The translations under genes and the position numbers were made by a program. The notes below the pieces were generated by a model. That model saw only the letters and a program-made list of their open reading frames with translations. It had not been told where the DNA came from and made no database searches. Positions 9,236-26,496 of a stretch of DNA of 26,496 bases are shown piece after piece. Each line of letters begins with the position of its first letter. Positions within the stretch are counted from its first letter, which is position 1. The stretch spans positions 1 through 26,496 of IMG/VR virus record IMGVR_UViG_3300017768_000068; one strand, given 5' to 3'. The DNA comes from a virus.

Positions 9236-10207
9236 ATGAATGAAAATGTAAGACTAGGCTATGCTTGTGTCAATATGACATTAACAAATAGACCTAAAAA
9301 GGCCGGTGGTAGAGTAACTACTTCTAGGACAGCACGAAAAGCAACATGGTATCCAGATCGAAACTATGAACTAATAGGTGAACGTGCATTAAAAAACGCA
9401 ACTGATTTATTACATTATTTACAATGGAATATCGAACATGATATAACATTGTTTAGAATAGGTTCTGAATTATTTCCATGGCATGATCATTATGAACTTA
9501 ATCAATTACCTCAGATCAAAGAAATCTCTGATAGATTATATGAAGCCGGCGAATATGCTCGTAAACATAATATGAGGTTAACTACACATCCAGGACCATT
9601 TCATGTATTAGGTTCTCCAAGGCAAGAAGTTGTAGAAAAATCTATTATAGGATTAGAACGTCATTCAGAAATGTTTGACCTTATGGGATATAAGCCTTCA
9701 TTTGAAAATAAGATAAATATTCATGTAGGTGGTATGTATGGTGACGCCGAAGGCACCGCAAAACGATGGATTGCTTCATGGCATAGATTATCAGATAGTC
9801 TTAAATCTAGATTGGTTTTAGAAAATGATGATAAACCAAGTATGTGGTCAACTCGAATGCTATATCATTATTTTTATAAAGAGATAGGTATTCCAATTAC
9901 ATTTGATTACCACCACCATACATTTCATCCAGATGAATTATCAGAAAGGCAAGCATTAGAATTAGCCAGTGAGACATGGCCAGATGATATTAGGCAATGT
10001 TGTCATTATTCAGAAAGTAGAGCCCGTGAATATCAAGATGAAAAGATTAGAAAACAAGCCCATTCAGATTATATTCGTGATGAGATTAGAACATATGGAT
10101 TAGATTTAGATATTGTTGTTGAAGCAAAAGCGAAAGAATTGGCAGTATTAGAACATAGAAGTTTATATAAACAAAAAAATAGGCCAATAATGGCCGAAGT
10201 TAGTTAA
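9236..10207 (+). CDS. uvsE: UV-damage endonuclease UvsE/UVDE (323 aa)
   Basis: Full-length UVDE-type TIM-barrel enzyme. It nicks DNA 5' to cyclobutane dimers and 6-4 photoproducts, starting repair without photoreactivation. The family opening RLGYACVNMTL is at residues 6-16. Metal-ligand-type residues follow in order: FRIGSELFPW (74-82), THPGPFHVLGS (His118), INIHVGGMYGD (His163), LENDD (Glu196), TFDYHHHTFHPD (Asp224, His227), QCCHYSES (His257) and AHSDYI (His276). Length is normal for the family. It is transcribed from its own promoter as a single gene, which suits expression to repair infecting DNA in sunlit water. Recognition is confident; timing is inferred. Confidence 0.93.
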   Translation: MNENVRLGYACVNMTLTNRPKKAGGRVTTSRTARKATWYPDRNYELIGERALKNATDLLHYLQWNIEHDITLFRIGSELFPWHDHYELNQLPQIKEISDRLYEAGEYARKHNMRLTTHPGPFHVLGSPRQEVVEKSIIGLERHSEMFDLMGYKPSFENKINIHVGGMYGDAEGTAKRWIASWHRLSDSLKSRLVLENDDKPSMWSTRMLYHYFYKEIGIPITFDYHHHTFHPDELSERQALELASETWPDDIRQCCHYSESRAREYQDEKIRKQAHSDYIRDEIRTYGLDLDIVVEAKAKELAVLEHRSLYKQKNRPIMAEVS

Positions 10208-12157: not shown

Positions 12158-12796
12158 ATGAGTGATTTATATAACGAACGACCAAATAGGCAAGCGCCTG
12201 AAGAAATTATAACAAACATGCAAGAATCATCACCGTATACAGAATTAAATGAAATTTTAGCAAATCAAATTGAACTAGATGATTCTGTAATATATCTTAA
12301 TGATGAGATAGAAGGACATACTTTATTTGATTTGGTGATACGTATTCGACGTACATTAAAGTTTAGACAATCAAAAGATTTTAAAGGATCACAAACAGAT
12401 CCTATTAATTTAATGATAAATAGTCCAGGTGGTGATATTCATGAAATGATGGGAATTATAGATTATATAAACTCATTAGATGTAAAGGTAAATACAATAT
12501 GTAGAGGAAAAGCCTTTTCGGCAGCCTCGGTTATATTAGCATGTGGTACAGGAACACGAATGGTTAGTAAAAATTCTACTATAATGTTCCATCAAGCATC
12601 ATCAATGATATCAGGAAAATTAACAGATGTAACAGCTACTGTTGATTTTGTAAAACAAGTAGAACAAGATATATACAACTTACTTGCAGAAAAAACAAAA
12701 AAAGATGCAAGTTGGTGGAAAGACCAAATGAGAACAGATATGTATTTGACATCAAATCAAGCATTAGATTTAGGTGTAGTAGATACAATAATTTAA
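12158..12796 (+). CDS. clpP: ClpP-type serine protease (212 aa)
   Basis: Complete ClpP fold. The Gly-rich strand is MINSPGGD (86-93). The nucleophile motif is CRGKAFSAAS with Ser121, followed by the MFHQAS motif with His145 and by Asp194 in RTDMYLT. The closing helix is SNQALDLGVVD. The His-Asp spacing of 49 equals that of E. coli ClpP. About 35-40 N-terminal residues precede the core. ClpP degrades unfolded substrates when docked to an AAA+ unfoldase. None is encoded in the window, so it would need host ClpX/ClpC or act alone. It heads an operon with GroES, an HD enzyme and the late sigma factor. Prohead-protease use is possible but not indicated. Confidence 0.9.
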   Translation: MSDLYNERPNRQAPEEIITNMQESSPYTELNEILANQIELDDSVIYLNDEIEGHTLFDLVIRIRRTLKFRQSKDFKGSQTDPINLMINSPGGDIHEMMGIIDYINSLDVKVNTICRGKAFSAASVILACGTGTRMVSKNSTIMFHQASSMISGKLTDVTATVDFVKQVEQDIYNLLAEKTKKDASWWKDQMRTDMYLTSNQALDLGVVDTII

Positions 12797-15077: not shown

Positions 15078-15455
15078 ATGCATGATGAATTTGAATTGTT
15101 CAAAGGAACTACATTTTCTGATTTAATGAAAGATATCTATCATAATTCTAAAAAGAAAGATAGACAAATAAATACATTGATTCAAGAACTACAGCCATTA
15201 ATAAAAAATATAGGTGATGCAACAGTAATAGTTCCTTTGATAAAAGAATACCTTGATGTATCGGTAAAAAATGATGAACATTTAGTTAAATTAGCAGCTG
15301 TAGTACAACGGTTAGTAGGATCTGCTTCTAAAGATGGTGGCGATGAATATGGAATGAGTGAAGAAGAAAAAGCTAGACTATTACAAACAGCTCAAGAAGA
15401 ATTAGATGCGATACATAAAGAACAAGATGAAATAAATTTAGGAGGAACTAAATGA
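15078..15455 (+). CDS. Conserved phage protein preceding the baseplate hub, 125 aa
   Basis: Starts at ATG 15078 after AAAGGGAATAAACT. It is all-helical and charged: ELFKGTTFSDLMKDIYHNSK, then INTLIQELQPLIKNIGDATV, IVPLIKEYLDVSVKNDEHLV and KLAAVVQRLV, with an acidic tail. From memory the FKGTTFSDL...LVPLIKEYLDV pattern is found beside tail genes in marine phages, without a known role. It ends with an AGGAGGA ribosome-binding site for the next gene and overlaps it by four bases. A baseplate or tail assembly role is inferred from position. Confidence 0.7.
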   Translation: MHDEFELFKGTTFSDLMKDIYHNSKKKDRQINTLIQELQPLIKNIGDATVIVPLIKEYLDVSVKNDEHLVKLAAVVQRLVGSASKDGGDEYGMSEEEKARLLQTAQEELDAIHKEQDEINLGGTK

Positions 15456-17743
15456 GTAGTATAACTTGGGGCTATGGTGAAGTTGTTAGCATTGATAATG
15501 CATTCAACCAAAAAACTGCTGCAAAAGAAAAAACAAAACAAGGTGGCGGTGAAGACGAAGCTAAAGATACTGTACGTGGTGAAATAGAAGTAATGTTACA
15601 AGGTAACATGACAGGTGCAGGAAATAAAACATCAGGTAAAAAAATAACAGCATATCCAGCAGATGGAAACATTATAAAAACACCATTGGTTGGAGAACAT
15701 GTTATATGCTTCCAAGGTCCTGGACCAGAAGCAGGATCAGCGCCACCCGATACAAAATCAGGAGATAAAAAAACAGGAAATCAATTTGATGTTGATTGGT
15801 ATTATCTTCCGCCAGTATATCTTGGTGGTAATGTACATTTAAATGCAAATCCTCAAGCTGCAGATGGTGGGGTAAAGAGTAAGACAAATACTGTACAAGA
15901 TGGAGAAAAAAAATCTAAAACTGAGGCATATGAAAATATAGAATCAGGAAATCCATCAACAACAAATAAAGCACCGACGGATGCAGGTACAGTTAATACA
16001 AAACAGAATATGGATAAACTTCCACCAAACATGGATTATTTATCAACTTCTATGGTAGAAAAATTTCAAAAATTAGAAGAAGCTGTACTTGTATATAAGA
16101 ACCAATTAGATTTAGGAGCTCCTGGTAAAGATGAAGCAGGCCTAAAAGATAAAGAACAAAAAATTGAAGATTATAAAAAAGAATTAGAAGAAGGAGGATA
16201 TACAGGAGAATTTAAAGAGTCTGAAGAAAAATTTGGATATGATACAAATACAGGTTATTTAGAATTATCTACATTAGGAGCTGAAAATTACGATTTTCAA
16301 AAACAATATGATGCAGGACAAACTACTTTTAGTTATGATAAGATAAAAAGTCTTCCACAAAATTCAAGAGGTATGGGAGATAAAAACTTTTATACATTAG
16401 AAGAATTAAATAATTTTACACCTAATCCTAAACCACCTGGAGGAGGAGGTCCAAACTCTAATCCAAATACTAGCAATCCTAGAGGAGGGAAAAATAGAGG
16501 TGAAAATCAAGATTTTGTTGAACAAGAAGATTTAAATAATTTACAGCCATATGAAGGTGATATGCTTATCCAAGGTAGGTTTGGCCAAAGTATTAGATTA
16601 GGATCAACAATTAATCCAAAAGATCCAAAACGATATGTAGTACAGCCATCATATAGTGCTGGTACAGCAGGACAACCAGCTCCAATTAATATATTAAGAG
16701 CCGGTCAATCTACCAACCAAACAAATCAAAATAATGATTATATAATTGAAGATATTAACGGAGATAAGGCTTCAATATATATGTGTTCGGGTCAACAAAT
16801 TCCAATAACATTAGCAAGTCCAACATTTGATGCATTACAAGAATGTATAGGTGGTAATTCAGGAGACTCAACCGGTTGTGCAGGATCAAGATATGATTCA
16901 AATGGAAATGTAATGCCATCTTACAATTGTAGTGGAGGCTCTAGTGGATTAATTGATGCAAGTGCAGAAATGAGTTTAGATGAGGTTGCAGATATATCAG
17001 ACCTAGAAGAATTAGATGGTGATTATGAATACTTTAATACTACAAAAGGAACTCCTAATTATGCAAAAGTAGTAGGAACAGATAAGCTTGTATTGATACA
17101 AGGAAATCCTGTACGTAAGACAATGGCACCTCGAGTTCTTGCATTATTTAGAGCTGCAAAAGAAGATGGAATATCTTTAAAATTAAATAGTTCATTCAGA
17201 GGTTTATATCAAATAAACCACCCTAAAACAGGAAAGAAATTAGCATCTGGACAAGTAAATTGTAGATATTCATGTGCTATAAATAAAAGTTGGTCTACAA
17301 AATCAAACATGGAGAACAGAAAAAGTCCATTATGGACAGCAGGTTCTACTAAATTTAAGCCATGGGTAGCAATTCCAGGAACTAGTAGACATCAAAGTGG
17401 TACTGCAATTGATTTAGATTATAAACGATATAAAGATGGTAAGAAAACAAGAACTACTGATAAAGATGGTGTATATGCTTGGTTAGTTGCAAATTCATAT
17501 AAATTTGGATTTGTAAGATCAGTAAAATCAGAAGAATGGCATTTTGAATATAATCTTGGTTGGGCAAAGAAAGGACCATTTGGAAGATTAAGACCAAGTA
17601 GTGGAAATAAATGGCACGGCCAAGACCAATATTTCCAAGATGGAACTAATGCTTGGTTAAAACCAAAAAGGTCAGGAGGTCAGGCTATAACGGAAGTATT
17701 GACACTTGGTCTTTTAGGTGATGGTGATGGAATAATAGGTTAA
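15452..17743 (+). CDS. Baseplate central hub (gp5-like) with C-terminal M15 D,D-carboxypeptidase/endopeptidase domain (763 aa)
   Basis: Residues 1-130 form an OB-like hub domain (SSITWGYGEVVSIDNAF, GEIEVMLQ, TPLVGEHVICFQGPGP, DWYYLPPVYLGG). Residues 200-360 are a charged, Gly/Asn/Pro-rich linker. Residues 368-455 carry a second hub-type unit (GDMLIQGRFGQSIRLGST, INILRAGQS, ASIYMCSGQQI). The C-terminal 535-710 domain is a VanY/M15 peptidase: SRHQSGTAIDLD gives His647 and Asp654, and EEWHFEYN gives Glu694 and His697, the zinc ligands and catalytic Glu. It would cleave peptidoglycan peptides as the tail crosses the cell wall, taking the place of T4 gp5 lysozyme. The four-base overlap with the upstream gene shows coupling. 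Confidence 0.85.
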   Translation: MSSITWGYGEVVSIDNAFNQKTAAKEKTKQGGGEDEAKDTVRGEIEVMLQGNMTGAGNKTSGKKITAYPADGNIIKTPLVGEHVICFQGPGPEAGSAPPDTKSGDKKTGNQFDVDWYYLPPVYLGGNVHLNANPQAADGGVKSKTNTVQDGEKKSKTEAYENIESGNPSTTNKAPTDAGTVNTKQNMDKLPPNMDYLSTSMVEKFQKLEEAVLVYKNQLDLGAPGKDEAGLKDKEQKIEDYKKELEEGGYTGEFKESEEKFGYDTNTGYLELSTLGAENYDFQKQYDAGQTTFSYDKIKSLPQNSRGMGDKNFYTLEELNNFTPNPKPPGGGGPNSNPNTSNPRGGKNRGENQDFVEQEDLNNLQPYEGDMLIQGRFGQSIRLGSTINPKDPKRYVVQPSYSAGTAGQPAPINILRAGQSTNQTNQNNDYIIEDINGDKASIYMCSGQQIPITLASPTFDALQECIGGNSGDSTGCAGSRYDSNGNVMPSYNCSGGSSGLIDASAEMSLDEVADISDLEELDGDYEYFNTTKGTPNYAKVVGTDKLVLIQGNPVRKTMAPRVLALFRAAKEDGISLKLNSSFRGLYQINHPKTGKKLASGQVNCRYSCAINKSWSTKSNMENRKSPLWTAGSTKFKPWVAIPGTSRHQSGTAIDLDYKRYKDGKKTRTTDKDGVYAWLVANSYKFGFVRSVKSEEWHFEYNLGWAKKGPFGRLRPSSGNKWHGQDQYFQDGTNAWLKPKRSGGQAITEVLTLGLLGDGDGIIG

Positions 17744-19675: not shown

Positions 19676-20293
19676 ATGGCAAATAATAGGACATTTAATA
19701 AAGAGCGACAATCTGCATATCTCAAAGGAGGTGGCAGACCATTGTATTCTTACAATCCTATTGATATAGAAGAAGATATTGCTATTGGTGTAATGTTACC
19801 ATTTAATGGAGCAAATAATGCAGTTGCAGAATTTAAACCAACCGATGCATATGAATCAGTATCAGGATCTGCGGCAACAACAGTAAATGCTAGTGCAAAA
19901 AAAATACCTGGTAAATTTCCATTGTCATATACAACCGAAGAACAAGCCTTATCAAATTTAAAAAATTTATTATTAACATATCCAGGTGAAAGATATATGC
20001 AGCCAACATTTGGAGTAAGAATTAAAGATAGAGTATTTGAACCTAATTCACCAGAATTAGTGGTAAAACTAAATAAAGAAATTCAAGATGCAATTAGCTA
20101 TTGGTTACCATATATTAAAGTATCAGCAATTAATATTGATAATAAAGAAAAAGATGGTTTAATTCAAAATACATTATTTATTAAACTAACGTTTAGAGTA
20201 ACTGAGCAAGGTGCAGAACAAGCAATAACATTGGTAAGTAATGGAGATTCAACTACAACTGTAGATGCATCTACAATGGCAGGAGCATATTAA
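19676..20293 (+). CDS. gp25: Baseplate wedge protein, T4 gp25-like (205 aa)
   Basis: The gp25/TssE-type core is at residues 88-125: EEQALSNLKNLLLTYPGERY, then MQPTFGVRIKDRVFE, followed by a helix (LVVKLNKEIQDAISYWLPYI) and strands (TLFIKLTFRVTEQ). gp25 joins the sheath to the baseplate wedge in contractile tails. The N-terminal 80 residues are an extension not found in the roughly 130-residue T4 protein and contain a short IGVMLPFNG strand region. It is followed after 13 bases by gp6, the usual order in T4-like phages. Confidence 0.88.
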   Translation: MANNRTFNKERQSAYLKGGGRPLYSYNPIDIEEDIAIGVMLPFNGANNAVAEFKPTDAYESVSGSAATTVNASAKKIPGKFPLSYTTEEQALSNLKNLLLTYPGERYMQPTFGVRIKDRVFEPNSPELVVKLNKEIQDAISYWLPYIKVSAINIDNKEKDGLIQNTLFIKLTFRVTEQGAEQAITLVSNGDSTTTVDASTMAGAY

Positions 20294-20306: not shown

Positions 20307-22187
20307 ATGGCGGATTTAATTAAAAAAGATGTAAAATATTTAAGTAAGGATTTTGGTGAATTTAGACAAAATTTAATAAATTTTTCAAAAAATTATTTTC
20401 CAAATACATATAATGATTTTAATGAAACATCACCTGGAATGATGTTTATGGAAATGGCATCATATGTAGGCGATGTATTAGCTTATTATACTGATAGTAA
20501 TCTTAAAGAATCATTATTAGGAGCAGCTGAAGAAAGATCAAATGTTAATGCAATTGCGCATGCATTTGGATACCAAGCAAAAAATATGGTGTCATCATTA
20601 GTTGATTTAGAAGTATACCAAACAGTACCAGCAATTGGAACTGGTATCAATGCAAAACCAGATTATAAATATGCATTGACACTTGAAGCAGGAATGGTAG
20701 TGCAATCAAATACAGGAATTAATTTTAGATCATTAATGCCAGTAGATTTTAATGCAACAGGTTCAGGAATAGGTTCTAGAACAGTTACTGTATATCAAGT
20801 AGATGAGAGTACAGGAACACCGACATATTATCTTATTAAAAAACGAGTTCAAGCAGTTTCTGGAGAAATAACTACAATGGATTATAATTTTCAGGAACCA
20901 AAAACATATGATAAAATAGTATTACCAGATGAAGATATCATTGAAGTAATTGATGTATATGATGACCAAGGTAATCGTTGGTATGAAGTTCCATATTTAG
21001 CACAAGATACAATACAAGAATCAATAAGAAATACTCCTAATATTGATCCAGAACTAAGTTCTTATAATAGTAGTGTTCCATATATTTTAAAATTAAAACG
21101 AACAGCAAAAAGATTTGTAACAAGATTTAGAGCAGATAAAAAGTTAGAATTACAATTTGGAGCAGGTATATCAGAAGAACATGATAGAGATTTAGTACCA
21201 AATCCAGAAAATGTTGGATTAGGAATTAAAGGATTAAAAAGAGAAGTAGATTTATCTGTAGATCCAGCAAACTTTTTATATTCAAGTACTTATGGACAAG
21301 CCCCATCACAAACAACATTAACTGTACGATATTCAAAAGGTAAAGGTCTTCAAGACAATGTTCCTGCAAATACAATACAAAATGTTACATCAAAAACATA
21401 TACAAGTCAAACAAATAATTTAGATGTATCATTATTAAAACAAGCCAAAGATTCATTAGCCGTAAATAATCCTGTACCATCAAAAGGAGCCGCATCTATA
21501 GAACCAATTGAAACTGTTCGACAAAAAGCATTAGGTATATTTGCAGCACAAAACAGAGCAGTAACAAAAGAAGATTATATATTAAGGTGTTATACAATGC
21601 CATCAAAATTTGGATCTATATCAAAAGCTTATATTATACAAGATGAACAAGTGGATTCAACAGATCCAGATGCAAAAATACCAAACCCATTAGCAATGAA
21701 TATTTATTGTATGGGATATAATTCAATTAAACAAATAGTACCACTTAATCCTGCAATAAAACAAAACGTAAAAACATATTTATCTCAATTTAGATTAATG
21801 ACTGATGCAATAAACATTAAAAATGCATTTGTTGTTAACTTTGGAGTTGATTTTGAAATAATACCAAAACCAAATTATAATGGATCAGAGGTTGTAGTTA
21901 AATGTATAGATAAATTAAAGGATTTATTATCTGCAGATAATATGCATATCAATGCTCCAATTGTAATATCAGATTTATATACTAATTTAGATAATGTAGA
22001 AGGAGTTCAGACAGTATCGGATGTAACAGTTAAAAACTTATATGATACAAATTCAGGATATGCAGGAAATGTATATGATATAAAGGCGGCAACATTAAAT
22101 AATATAATTTATCCATCATTAGATCCATGTATATTTGAAATAAGATATCCTAATTCAGATATTAAAGGTAGAATTGTAGGAATATAA
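20307..22187 (+). CDS. gp6: Baseplate wedge protein, T4 gp6/baseplate J-like (626 aa)
   Basis: Residues 10-95 show the gp6 opening: SKDFGEFRQNLINFSKNYFP, then FNETSPGMMFMEMASYVGDV, LAYYTDSNLKESLL and NAIAHAFGYQAK. The baseplate-J core spans the middle, including ETVRQKALGIFAAQNRAVTK, then EDYILRCYTMPSKFGSISKA. The C-terminal domain includes INAPIVISDLYTNLDNVEGV. gp6 forms the ring that links the wedges around the hub. The length matches T4 gp6 (about 660). The ribosome-binding site is AGGGAA. Neighbours gp25 and later structural genes confirm the baseplate module. Confidence 0.88.
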   Translation: MADLIKKDVKYLSKDFGEFRQNLINFSKNYFPNTYNDFNETSPGMMFMEMASYVGDVLAYYTDSNLKESLLGAAEERSNVNAIAHAFGYQAKNMVSSLVDLEVYQTVPAIGTGINAKPDYKYALTLEAGMVVQSNTGINFRSLMPVDFNATGSGIGSRTVTVYQVDESTGTPTYYLIKKRVQAVSGEITTMDYNFQEPKTYDKIVLPDEDIIEVIDVYDDQGNRWYEVPYLAQDTIQESIRNTPNIDPELSSYNSSVPYILKLKRTAKRFVTRFRADKKLELQFGAGISEEHDRDLVPNPENVGLGIKGLKREVDLSVDPANFLYSSTYGQAPSQTTLTVRYSKGKGLQDNVPANTIQNVTSKTYTSQTNNLDVSLLKQAKDSLAVNNPVPSKGAASIEPIETVRQKALGIFAAQNRAVTKEDYILRCYTMPSKFGSISKAYIIQDEQVDSTDPDAKIPNPLAMNIYCMGYNSIKQIVPLNPAIKQNVKTYLSQFRLMTDAINIKNAFVVNFGVDFEIIPKPNYNGSEVVVKCIDKLKDLLSADNMHINAPIVISDLYTNLDNVEGVQTVSDVTVKNLYDTNSGYAGNVYDIKAATLNNIIYPSLDPCIFEIRYPNSDIKGRIVGI

Positions 22188-22199
22188 AGGGAATAGATT

Positions 22200-23351
22200 A
22201 TGGCACATTATCAAATATATACAGAAAGAGATGCAACTATATATGAAAAGTATCCGGAAAGGAATACTGGAATAGATCAAATTTTAGAATTAGTAAAAAC
22301 AACTTCTGGTTCTAGATTAGATGACTTGTTTCAAGTTGCTTCTTTTAATACTCGTATATTAGTAGACTTTAATGGAACTCAATTTACTGAATTATCTAAG
22401 TCAATTAGTAATGGAGAAATGGGATCATCAGTACATACACGAAAATTTTATTTAAATATGAAAAGTGTTTATGCATCCGACTTACCTATATCATATTCAT
22501 TACATGCCTATCCAGTTTCTGAGTCTTGGAATAATGGAGCAGGTAATTATGCAGATCTGCCAGAAACTAGAAACGGAGTTTCTTGGTATTATAGAGATAA
22601 TGACGATAACAAAACTGTATGGAATACAGGATCAGCCCATAGCGCAAATACATCAGCAGGCCTAACAAATGCACAAGGAGGAGGTGCATGGTGGACAGGA
22701 TCAGGATATGAAGCATCGCAGCAATTTAATTATATATCACCTGATGTAAGAATGGAAATAACTCCTATAGTAATAAAATGGATGAACGGCCATATTCCAA
22801 ATAATGGTCTTATAATTAAACAAAAATATGAAGATGAAGTAAACAATGCAGAAAACTTTAATTTAAAGTTTTTCTCTAAAGATACTCATACAATATATGC
22901 TCCTAAGTTAGAAGTTGTCTGGCCAGATATATCAAATGCAGGTACGGCAAGTTTAACAGAAACAAATGTAACAGCATCTGGAGGACCAATAGTATATTTT
23001 AAAAATATAGAAGAATCATATCCAGAAGGATCTAGAACACAATTTAGATTAGGAATAAGATCACAATACCCAACTAAAACATATTCTACAGCATCTCATT
23101 ATACAACAAATGAAATATTACCTCCAAATTCAGCATCTTATGCAGTATGTGATGCAGTAACAGGAGAAACGTTATTAGATTATGATGATACATATACATG
23201 TATTAGTAATGATAAACAAGGAAGTTATTTTAATTATTGGATGGATGCATTGAGTCCTGAACGATATTATAAGTTTAAAATTAGAGCAAAATATGATAAT
23301 AACATTATAAAATATTTTGATAATGGTTATTATTTTAAAGTGGTAAGATAA
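22200..23351 (+). CDS. Tail/baseplate structural protein with DNRLRE-like N-terminal domain (383 aa)
   Basis: Residues 8-60 follow the DNRLRE pattern: ERDATIYEKYPERNTGIDQI, then LELVKT and FNTRILVDFNG. Residues 85-210 continue as a jelly-roll with the usual W..G/TWN-type marks (SESWNNGAGNYADLP, then KTVWNTG and GGGAWWTGSGYEASQ). Residues 255-383 form a second, beta-rich domain (YFKNIEESYPEGSRTQFRLG, ending RYYKFKIRAKYDN). DNRLRE domains are structural stalk or adhesive modules. Position after gp6 corresponds to gp7/gp8-type wedge genes, but the sequence does not resemble those. Probably a baseplate-attached or fibre-linking protein. Confidence 0.65.
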   Translation: MAHYQIYTERDATIYEKYPERNTGIDQILELVKTTSGSRLDDLFQVASFNTRILVDFNGTQFTELSKSISNGEMGSSVHTRKFYLNMKSVYASDLPISYSLHAYPVSESWNNGAGNYADLPETRNGVSWYYRDNDDNKTVWNTGSAHSANTSAGLTNAQGGGAWWTGSGYEASQQFNYISPDVRMEITPIVIKWMNGHIPNNGLIIKQKYEDEVNNAENFNLKFFSKDTHTIYAPKLEVVWPDISNAGTASLTETNVTASGGPIVYFKNIEESYPEGSRTQFRLGIRSQYPTKTYSTASHYTTNEILPPNSASYAVCDAVTGETLLDYDDTYTCISNDKQGSYFNYWMDALSPERYYKFKIRAKYDNNIIKYFDNGYYFKVVR

Positions 23352-23352
23352 A

Positions 23353-25206
23353 ATGGCAAATATACCAACTAAACAAGCAGTAGAAACAAGAGTAGCTACG
23401 GATGATCAAATCTTTAAGAGGCTTAACAAAAGACTCAATGGATTAGACCAACCGCTAGGTCTTAAACCTACTATCCAAAATCAAGGAGATGCGATTAAAC
23501 CAGATGGAACAATTGCAAAAACTGATGATGATATTGCTTTAATTGAAGGAAAGCCGTTACGAACTCCTACTGGTGTATTAGAATATAAAGAAGAAAAAGA
23601 AGATGAAAACTTTCCAGTAAAGGTTCCATTATTAACTGAGGCGCCAACTGTTGAATCATTTATGGAAGCTGTAGATACAACTTTTAGTCATTTCTTATCA
23701 GGATATGGAGAAGATCCTTTATACGGAACATCAGAACAAATTACAGTTGTAGATGGACCAGAAATACAAGATAAAGATATTGAAGTAGTAACTGTTGATA
23801 ATACAGTTACAAAAGATGACCCAGATGAAGATGATAATCCAAAAACAGCTGAAGAAGAATTTGGAAAAGATTGGGAAATAAAAACTGAAATCAATGTTGC
23901 TGGAGACTTAACAGGTGTTGCTGGTAGGATGTATATGTGCTGGAAAGGAATTAGATATAGATTCTATGATGGTGAACCAGGCGGAAAAAATGCAATAAAA
24001 AGTAGTAGAATTCATACAACAGATGGAGATTCTGTAGTATCACAAGATGTTGCAATCCATGGTTTAACAAATCATATATCAGGAAGAAATCTTGAAGTTT
24101 TCATGAAAGATAGACAATTAACATATGGTGATATTGAGATAGTTCCAAGAGCAGAAATATCAGAGATACTTACAATAGCGAAGTTTTTACGTGCTTTTGA
24201 TGATGATGAAATAGAATGGGGTAAACCAGCTAGAGATGGATTCCAATATAATACAAATACTGTATTTTCAAAACTTAATGGGTGTGAATATGAAGCAGGA
24301 GATATAATTAAACCTGCAAAAGATAAAGAAGATCCAAGATATTTACCTAACTTAGCACAAAGATGGACAGAATACCATCCAGATGCAACAATGAAGCCAG
24401 CTAAAGAATCTCAAATTTATAAACCTAATGCTGAAGAAATATTAACAAAGAAATGGGAAGGAACTTTAATTGTTGCATATGATCAAGGAAAATATGTAAA
24501 ACGTTTTTATGTCAGTAAGGGTCGAATGTACAAAGTAAGTTTTGGATTTGATCATTTTGCAACAATAATGAAAAAGCCACCTCATAGAGATCCAAGAACA
24601 GATAAAAGCTGGGACAAAGATAATGATACAACACAAACAGCTATGAATTGGAGTCAATTACAGCATCTTGGTATAGGACCAAATAATAAAGTTACGCGAG
24701 GAGACTTTAATGCAAATGATAAAGTTAGATTTGCTCAACATACAAATATGGGAGGATGGACAAAAGATTTAGGAATTGGCGAATATAGCAAGGGTAGTCA
24801 ATTAGGTGGTAATGATAATGTTTCATCAATTCGTATACCACATGGATATACTGTAAAAATATATCAAAATGGTTCATTTAAAGGCAAGAAACAAACATTA
24901 AGAGGACCAGCTAATGCAGACCAATATAAGATATGGAATGCGACATCTGATACAATGGACTCCACGACAGTAACAAGATATAGTAGGCGTGGATTCCTTG
25001 GACTAGGAGGTCTCGTAGGGACTACATCTGTTAACAAGGTATCTTGGAATGACCAAATTAGTAGCGCTAAAATTGAAAGAGATGCACCAGGTTATGGTAA
25101 TGGGGCAGGAGCAATGAACAAGAAAAAATTTGAAAGGCATATGAAAGATGGCCCATATTTTAAAAAGTCTCATTTAGCTAATTATAATAAATTATTTGAT
25201 TTATAA
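23353..25206 (+). CDS. Tail structural protein with betagamma-crystallin-like domain (617 aa)
   Basis: Begins one base after the previous stop. Residues 1-175 are acidic and partly disordered. The region 176-260 is beta-rich (MYMCWKGIRYRFYDGEPGGK, IHTTDGDSVVS). Residues 365-405 contain further beta strands (WEGTLIVAYDQGKYVKRFYV). Residues 457-576 show two Greek-key motifs of a betagamma-crystallin: VRFAQHTNMGGWTKDLGIGEY ending in NDNVSSIRIP, and VKIYQNGSFKGKKQTL ending in NDQISSAKIE. The paired N/D-N/D-x-x-S-S signatures (487-492, 566-571) are the calcium sites of the family. An insertion of about 35 residues splits the second motif. Calcium-stabilised or glycan-binding tail function is inferred. 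Confidence 0.7.
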   Translation: MANIPTKQAVETRVATDDQIFKRLNKRLNGLDQPLGLKPTIQNQGDAIKPDGTIAKTDDDIALIEGKPLRTPTGVLEYKEEKEDENFPVKVPLLTEAPTVESFMEAVDTTFSHFLSGYGEDPLYGTSEQITVVDGPEIQDKDIEVVTVDNTVTKDDPDEDDNPKTAEEEFGKDWEIKTEINVAGDLTGVAGRMYMCWKGIRYRFYDGEPGGKNAIKSSRIHTTDGDSVVSQDVAIHGLTNHISGRNLEVFMKDRQLTYGDIEIVPRAEISEILTIAKFLRAFDDDEIEWGKPARDGFQYNTNTVFSKLNGCEYEAGDIIKPAKDKEDPRYLPNLAQRWTEYHPDATMKPAKESQIYKPNAEEILTKKWEGTLIVAYDQGKYVKRFYVSKGRMYKVSFGFDHFATIMKKPPHRDPRTDKSWDKDNDTTQTAMNWSQLQHLGIGPNNKVTRGDFNANDKVRFAQHTNMGGWTKDLGIGEYSKGSQLGGNDNVSSIRIPHGYTVKIYQNGSFKGKKQTLRGPANADQYKIWNATSDTMDSTTVTRYSRRGFLGLGGLVGTTSVNKVSWNDQISSAKIERDAPGYGNGAGAMNKKKFERHMKDGPYFKKSHLANYNKLFDL

Positions 25207-25217
25207 AAAAGGACAGC

Positions 25218-26496
25218 ATGTTAGAACAATATCTAAACGGTGAAAATATTAAAGCTTCAAGTCGTCCATTGGATGCGGTCCAGCTTACAGCTGATGATAA
25301 AGAAATTATCAAAACTGAATTAATTGAAATAAACAAATTTGATGATCCGGCATTAGATGAAGTAATTGAGTTACACATATATAATACACAAGGAAGTTAT
25401 CTAACAAGTGACCATACAGCCGAACATTGGAAACATTTTTCTACAGATGAAAGTTTTCTTCAATTTGATGTTTATAAAAACTTTCAAGATAATGGTATCT
25501 CTCAAGGAACGTTTAAATTTGTTTTAAATTTTCATAGAAATCTTGTTGGTGATGATAATAATCCAAACTTATTTATTAAAGAAATATCTCCAGATAAAAC
25601 AGAGATATTAATTAAAGTAGGCCAGGAAGAAGTTACTGTTTCACAAAAAGAAACTAAGAATTTAGATGTTCCAGAAGTTACTACATATGATCAATTAAAT
25701 ATGTTCCATGAACGAAGAATGGAATTATGTGGTGATAATGGATATGTAAACTTTTTATTTTTAAACTTTGGTGCAAATGAAACATACCAATTTGTAAATT
25801 ATAGATGGCTTGCAAATACAAAAGAATTGTATATTAAATTATACCAACCATTACCAGATGATGTAAAAGAAAAACGTAAATTTTGGATTGTACAACAAGT
25901 AAGACAACCATATTCAGATAATACAGTATTATACAGAAAGCCAGTAGAAGCACCAGTTAATAACTTGAAAGGACCTAACTGGGAAATAGATGTTAAATAT
26001 GGTAAGATATCAGAAACCAATTTCCAAAACTGGAACGATTTATTAGGCTCATCAACAGCCACATCACAACAGATAATTGATAAATTATTTTCAGGTTCAT
26101 TATCAGGAGCTCATTTAGGTATAGATTATTCAGGATTTCAAAACTTTGTAAATTATTCTTCTGCAAAAGAACGTCTTGCAAACTTTAAATATAAAGTTGA
26201 ACTTATTGAATATTATGATTCGCAGATAGGAACGTTAAATAACATCTCTGAATCAAATGAAATAAATGCAAATAAATCGTTGTACAGAAGGTATAAAGAT
26301 AATATAGTAGGAGGATTTGATGGGTTTGAACAATATATGTATCGTGAACAAACTGGAAGTTTTTATACGCATGGTATATCAGGTTCTGCAATCCACCAAG
26401 AAGGATTTACTGTTCAGCCATGGCCAAAAGAAGCTTATGGAAAAACTATATCAGGAAAAATATTTACTAAAAATGAATATACATTACATCACTCAA
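25218..26496 (+). CDS. Large phage structural protein, N-terminal part (cut by window end)
   Basis: ATG 25218 follows an AAAGGACAGC ribosome-binding site; the frame stays open for 426 codons to the window edge. The N-terminus is MLEQYLNGENIKASSRPLDA. A beta-rich region includes FKFVLNFHRNLVGDDNNPNL, then FIKEISPDKTEILIKV, a pattern I recall from long tail or fibre proteins of marine phages. Later come VNFLFLNFGANETYQFVNYR, then KFWIVQQVRQPYSDNTVLY, and a helical charged part. No enzymatic motif is seen. Its place after the baseplate wedge genes suggests a baseplate-attached or tail-fibre protein; the C-terminus, which would show the receptor-binding part, is missing. Confidence 0.75.
   Translation, partial: MLEQYLNGENIKASSRPLDAVQLTADDKEIIKTELIEINKFDDPALDEVIELHIYNTQGSYLTSDHTAEHWKHFSTDESFLQFDVYKNFQDNGISQGTFKFVLNFHRNLVGDDNNPNLFIKEISPDKTEILIKVGQEEVTVSQKETKNLDVPEVTTYDQLNMFHERRMELCGDNGYVNFLFLNFGANETYQFVNYRWLANTKELYIKLYQPLPDDVKEKRKFWIVQQVRQPYSDNTVLYRKPVEAPVNNLKGPNWEIDVKYGKISETNFQNWNDLLGSSTATSQQIIDKLFSGSLSGAHLGIDYSGFQNFVNYSSAKERLANFKYKVELIEYYDSQIGTLNNISESNEINANKSLYRRYKDNIVGGFDGFEQYMYREQTGSFYTHGISGSAIHQEGFTVQPWPKEAYGKTISGKIFTKNEYTLHHS

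Follow-up and report, generated by a model that had tools for sequence, protein, structure and literature searches.

A betagamma-crystallin domain in a baseplate-cluster protein of an uncultured tailed phage: sequence, predicted structure and possible role

Background

The window considered here is the whole of a 26,496-nt stretch of DNA (positions 1 to 26,496 of IMG/VR record IMGVR_UViG_3300017768_000068) from an uncultured tailed phage. It encodes a 617-amino-acid protein whose C-terminal part was proposed, in an initial annotation, to consist of two crystallin-type motifs ending in calcium signatures. The double-Greek-key, calcium-binding fold so implied is that of the eye-lens and bacterial spore-coat crystallins, and its placement in a phage tail protein raises two questions, namely whether the domain is a betagamma-crystallin at all and, if so, what it would do on a baseplate.

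Gene organization

The placement of the gene in a phage tail agrees with its surroundings (Table 1), since gp25-like and gp6-like genes, the homologs of both members of the T4-type baseplate module (gp25/gp6), are encoded nearby upstream. Across contigs the gp6-like protein, a protein of ~380-700 aa and the large protein recur, and the gene lying between them varies from ~100 to 1160 aa. The contents of this variable slot (L008-L095) look unrelated to one another; one of them matches the Hint-domain-like Vint family of Pfam and another AXH, and Pfam analysis of the other slot proteins gave scattered matches with no family common to them. The segment at aa 69-115 of the crystallin protein turns up again in proteins that are shorter or otherwise different and are encoded at this position, and it is a candidate baseplate anchor. 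In profile comparison, the middle region weakly resembles a type of 900-aa protein that fills the slot in related phages. These matches suggest an anchor held in common, with outer parts that can be exchanged. Downstream, the ~1950-aa relatives of the large protein in L089 and L087 contain Laminin_G_3 (E ~4e-18) beyond the part that lies inside the window.

Elsewhere in the window are a protein of the endonuclease family phrog_8420 (3e-51; 9236-10207), a ClpP-like head maturation protease (phrog_94, 3.1e-39; 12158-12796) and, in the tail region, a 763-aa protein (15452-17743) with a weak tape-measure match and a VanY-type D-Ala-D-Ala carboxypeptidase domain near its C-terminus. The last is probably a tail-borne cell-wall peptidase.

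Table 1. Features of the baseplate region and of the crystallin protein (positions in the window)
Feature	Position	Strand	Evidence
gp25-like baseplate wedge protein	19676..20293	+	PF04965 E 1.8e-15
gp6-like baseplate wedge protein	20307..22187	+	phrog_219 E 4.3e-18; 49% identical full-length to Microcystis phage protein
383-aa DNRLRE-like protein	22200..23351	+	NCBIfam NF033679 E 1.8e-7, 31.4 bits, just under cut-off of 34
617-aa baseplate-cluster protein with crystallin domain	23353..25206	+	open frame; eight further distinct relatives, ~40-48% identical
N-terminal segment, aa 69-115	23557..23697	+	HMM matches to L008 (116 aa) and L009; weak hhalign matches
Middle region, aa 245-411	24085..24585	+	hhalign E 0.0024, probability only 12%
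Betagamma-crystallin domain, two Greek keys, aa 457-576	24721..25080	+	phmmer/profile matches, Foldseek, VIA
Calcium signature of motif 1, NDNVSS, residues 487-492	24811..24828	+	direct sequence; fits N/D-N/D-X-X-S/T-S
32-residue insertion, hydrophobic Gly-rich loop (RRGFLGLGGLVG), residues 534-565	24952..25047	+	missing from all relatives
Calcium signature of motif 2, NDQISS, residues 566-571	25048..25065	+	direct sequence; fits N/D-N/D-X-X-S/T-S
Conserved C-terminal tail with KxHLxxYNxLF	25132..25203	+	invariant in seven-sequence alignment A6
Large baseplate-region protein, start only (window ends inside)	25218..26496	+	relatives ~1950 aa

The betagamma-crystallin domain

The assignment of residues 457-576 to the betagamma-crystallins is well supported by homology and by fold prediction. 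When the whole protein was compared with solved structures using phmmer, bacterial betagamma-crystallins were ranked on top: clostrillin (2.9e-5), hahellin (5.8e-5) and Protein S (3.5e-4). The domain alone gave 1.5e-6 with Protein S and 3.6e-6 with clostrillin, the full-length family profile 1.7e-6, and the C-terminal profile A6 2.5e-7, in a match spanning both Greek keys. Profile support is thus present, though the Pfam model PF00030 scores the window protein at only 16.8 bits (E 0.0075), under its curated cut-off of 25 bits, which applies to the whole-protein score and is a model threshold rather than a structural criterion. That score, the failure of PF00030 to match any other member of the family at E 1 (one of eight matching in all) and the value of only 0.54 to hahellin when the relative L090 was used singly are what could be said for chance signatures within an unrelated beta-rich protein, a reading which is extremely improbable and already largely refuted, as betagamma-crystallins rank best in four sequence searches and in the fold searches as well.

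Within the domain, motif 2 has the classical Y-x4-F-x-G (Y504, F509, G511) and motif 1 a degenerate form of Y/F/W-x4-Y/F-x-G (F460, N465, G467), both read off the sequence. Such an element opens motifs of the A/B type and is missing from those of the S type. Both calcium signatures described in the initial annotation as ending the two motifs are present in ORF 23353-25206, and they conform to the consensus N/D-N/D-X-X-S/T-S (PMC3551895). They are the sole two [ND][ND]xx[ST]S matches in the 617 residues, and N566 and D567 of the second are invariant in the seven-sequence alignment A6. Since composition shuffles of the protein contain at least two such matches in 0.26% of cases, the signatures taken alone are modest, suggestive evidence, and homology is the stronger argument. 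Calcium binding by the window protein is nevertheless likely, to judge from the canonical form of both signatures.

The initial annotation had made its proposal hinge on paired Greek keys, and these appear in the predicted fold. Two AlphaFold models were built from shallow alignments of 7-8 sequences, and their confidence is low to moderate. The full-length AlphaFold2 model has a mean pLDDT of 44, too low for placing the domains relative to one another; among its Foldseek matches the top 19 are betagamma-crystallins without exception (best 1.6e-4, target-normalised TM 0.74). In the model of residues 440-616, where pLDDT is ~60-80 in the domain core, the two Greek keys are predicted to pack as one beta-sandwich domain. 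With this model VIA returned the Flavobacterium johnsoniae crystallin 3hzb at Z 9.7 (86/90 residues, 2.3 A); an equal Z of 9.7 is reached by a C-terminal part of the GH29 fucosidase 4ni3, and the other top rows are mostly betagamma-crystallins. Sequence searches and structure matches therefore point to the same family, and two kinds of evidence agree.

The Gly-rich insertion that had been noticed in the second motif is borne out: it comprises about 32 residues, sits just before NDQISS and is unique to the window lineage. It includes GFLGLGGLVGT; among 11-residue stretches of the protein, only a predicted helix near residue 269 is more hydrophobic. Strands are modelled at model residues 95-102 and 123-125, with pLDDT under 50 between them, so that part of the insertion may form a beta-hairpin, a prediction of low confidence. 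Its exact placement varies with the alignment, some alignments setting SDTMDST against the NDDISS of relatives; the structure model was built on an alignment in which NDQISS was matched and consequently lends the placement no independent support.

Relatives and signature erosion

The near-identical contigs (L001/L084 and L002) differ from the window in this ORF by 1-2 nucleotides, every one synonymous. More distant relatives were found in IMG/VR (L004, L085, L086, L087, with L088 and L092 of the same type, L089, which is the L005 contig, L090 and L091), and a scan of a genome collection added one, L100, on a 3.9-kb contig in a Candidatus Nitrosopelagicus bin. The crystallin domain is kept in all of these, that of L086 being cut short by the end of its contig.

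The signatures are another matter. Motif 1 reads NNDASY in L004, L086, L089, L090 and L091, ENSLTS in L085 and L087, and FNGLSY in L100. Motif 2 reads NDDISS, NDDISR, NDDISA or NDDVSS in L004, L089, L090 and L091, NDVFDT or NDDYDT in L085 and L087, and NDKFNY in L100. Both are canonical only in the window lineage, and one relative possesses neither, which indicates that the calcium signatures are less strictly conserved than the domain itself. In L085 and L087, the lineage with degraded signatures, a His-rich stretch (HSHGSYNYHAH, HRHGNSTHSH) is inserted in motif 1 and is possibly a metal-binding loop.

Candidatus Nitrosopelagicus is a marine archaeon, and the bin in which L100 was found supports a marine habitat for the family. 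The VanY-type peptidoglycan peptidase domain encoded in the window argues for a host with peptidoglycan, and for this reason L100 is probably a misbinned phage contig and not an archaeal virus. The GC content is 30-34%.

Function

The reading that we favour, at slightly less than even odds, is that the crystallin protein belongs to a contractile-tail baseplate as an accessory part, which displays a calcium-binding domain and binds the host surface with it. We infer that the protein is part of the virion, that the domain is displayed outward and binds calcium, and what its ligand is, as follows. The N-terminal and middle regions would dock onto the baseplate, and the C-terminal region would hold the betagamma-crystallin domain outward, where its target on the host surface would most likely be a glycan of the envelope or capsule. 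Bound at the two signatures, calcium would stiffen both Greek keys, and the hydrophobic Gly-rich hairpin peculiar to this lineage could serve as a second contact surface.

A baseplate-mounted, surface-binding module is judged most likely on account of the variable slot, which is as expected of a host-adapted module, the carbohydrate-binding-type domains of the neighbours, and precedent: in the Vibrio adhesin RbmC, betagamma-crystallin domains arranged in tandem bind mucin, and in Bap1 adhesion to lipids and surfaces is conferred by a loop inserted in its beta-prism (PMC10102183). From these neighbours and the literature, glycan binding by the phage domain is plausible by analogy. The C-terminal region containing the crystallin is 26-34% identical between relatives and the window, as against 41-48% for the whole protein, and this faster divergence is also in keeping with a surface binder. 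Against it stand the erosion of the signatures among relatives and the strongly conserved tail that follows the crystallin, so that the domain does not lie at the very end of the chain. The true receptor binder may instead be the large neighbouring protein, with its lectin-like domain in relatives.

The main and serious rival, somewhat less probable in our estimate, is a structural clamp, in which a rigid crystallin joins neighbouring baseplate subunits or stabilises the baseplate, calcium adds only stability, and that in the window lineage, and there is no host ligand. Retention of the domain in all relatives, even those whose calcium signatures are gone, speaks for it, as do the conserved parts of the same protein on both sides of the domain, including the invariant tail motif. 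Moreover, betagamma-crystallin domains are often stability modules, and the vibrillin domain self-associates, with Ca2+ shifting its monomer-dimer balance (PMC3551895). A clamp would not, however, be expected to diverge faster than the rest of its protein, and the shorter proteins without a crystallin domain at the same gene position indicate that related baseplates assemble without one.

That the product is a non-virion protein of the baseplate cluster, such as an assembly factor or chaperone, is unlikely. The protein has no match in PHROG and its virion membership is deduced from genes, but its position within a run of structural genes is conserved across many contigs. Very unlikely, too, is a calcium-gated adhesin, in which environmental calcium would fold or rigidify the domain and so expose the Gly-rich hairpin for outer-membrane insertion or glycan binding; attachment would then be committed only at adequate calcium. 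The link between infection and seawater calcium that was raised in the initial annotation loses force, since the domain persists in related phages from which one or both signatures have gone.

The crystallin domain adds one fold to the candidate host-contact modules of phages. The graded loss of signatures among the relatives makes the calcium dependence of this tail protein directly testable by comparison of homologs.

Comparison with known systems

Searches of phage records with the protein and with the domain gave no match, and a relative used as query gave only chance-level pieces (E 6-7); no crystallin protein was found among cultured phage records. When clostrillin was compared with phage records, two candidates were considered and set aside. 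MT839921 is an unverified short scaffold whose crystallin ORF begins like a bacterial lipoprotein and is therefore probably not of phage origin, and the match in Klebsiella phage N1M2 (E 0.8) is a hypothetical protein without a crystallin signature. PF00030 gave only two sub-threshold matches over 43 related records, both in frames with stops; as this model misses the family's own members, its null result leaves room for other crystallins. Giant-virus proteins head the matches in the viral structure library BFVD, where just one match falls below 0.001 and a siphovirus protein, ctiMP24, appears at E 0.02; betagamma-crystallin-like proteins are present in giant viruses, one of them so named. A search of the literature for a phage-tail betagamma-crystallin found no paper describing one. 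By the literature and phage records searched, this appears to be the first betagamma-crystallin domain described in a phage baseplate gene module.

Two phages resemble the locus in gene order: Flavobacterium phage immuto and Microcystis phage Mel-JY01 have, in the same sequence, a gp25/tail-lysozyme gene, a gp6-like gene, a gene for a ~380-aa protein, the slot gene and a gene for a large protein, but their slot genes (112 and 413 aa) have no match to the crystallin domain. The Charybdis elements, marine and virus-like, encode as their hallmark a double Greek-key protein, Gp3, which is weakly betagamma-crystallin-like (DALI Z 4.9 in that study; PMC12324425). These are, however, small archaeal elements, and Gp3, which lies outside known Greek-key clusters, is proposed to be capsid-like and is not a tail protein. 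The M1M2 part of Vibrio RbmC (PMC10102183) likewise places betagamma-crystallin in a multi-domain protein, there with a role in glycan or surface binding; RbmC is a cellular biofilm adhesin and not a phage protein.

The closest counterparts are the microbial betagamma-crystallins, including clostrillin (3snz/3i9h), the Flavobacterium johnsoniae protein (3hzb), hahellin (2kp5) and Protein S (1nps/1prr), with which the window domain shares two consecutive Greek keys, the N/D-N/D-X-X-S/T-S signature and, once the insert is subtracted, a similar size. It differs from them in being part of a phage baseplate-cluster protein, in having a Gly-rich insert of ~32 residues within or beside the second Greek key, and in the conserved C-terminal tail. 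The fold is known; the architecture is new.
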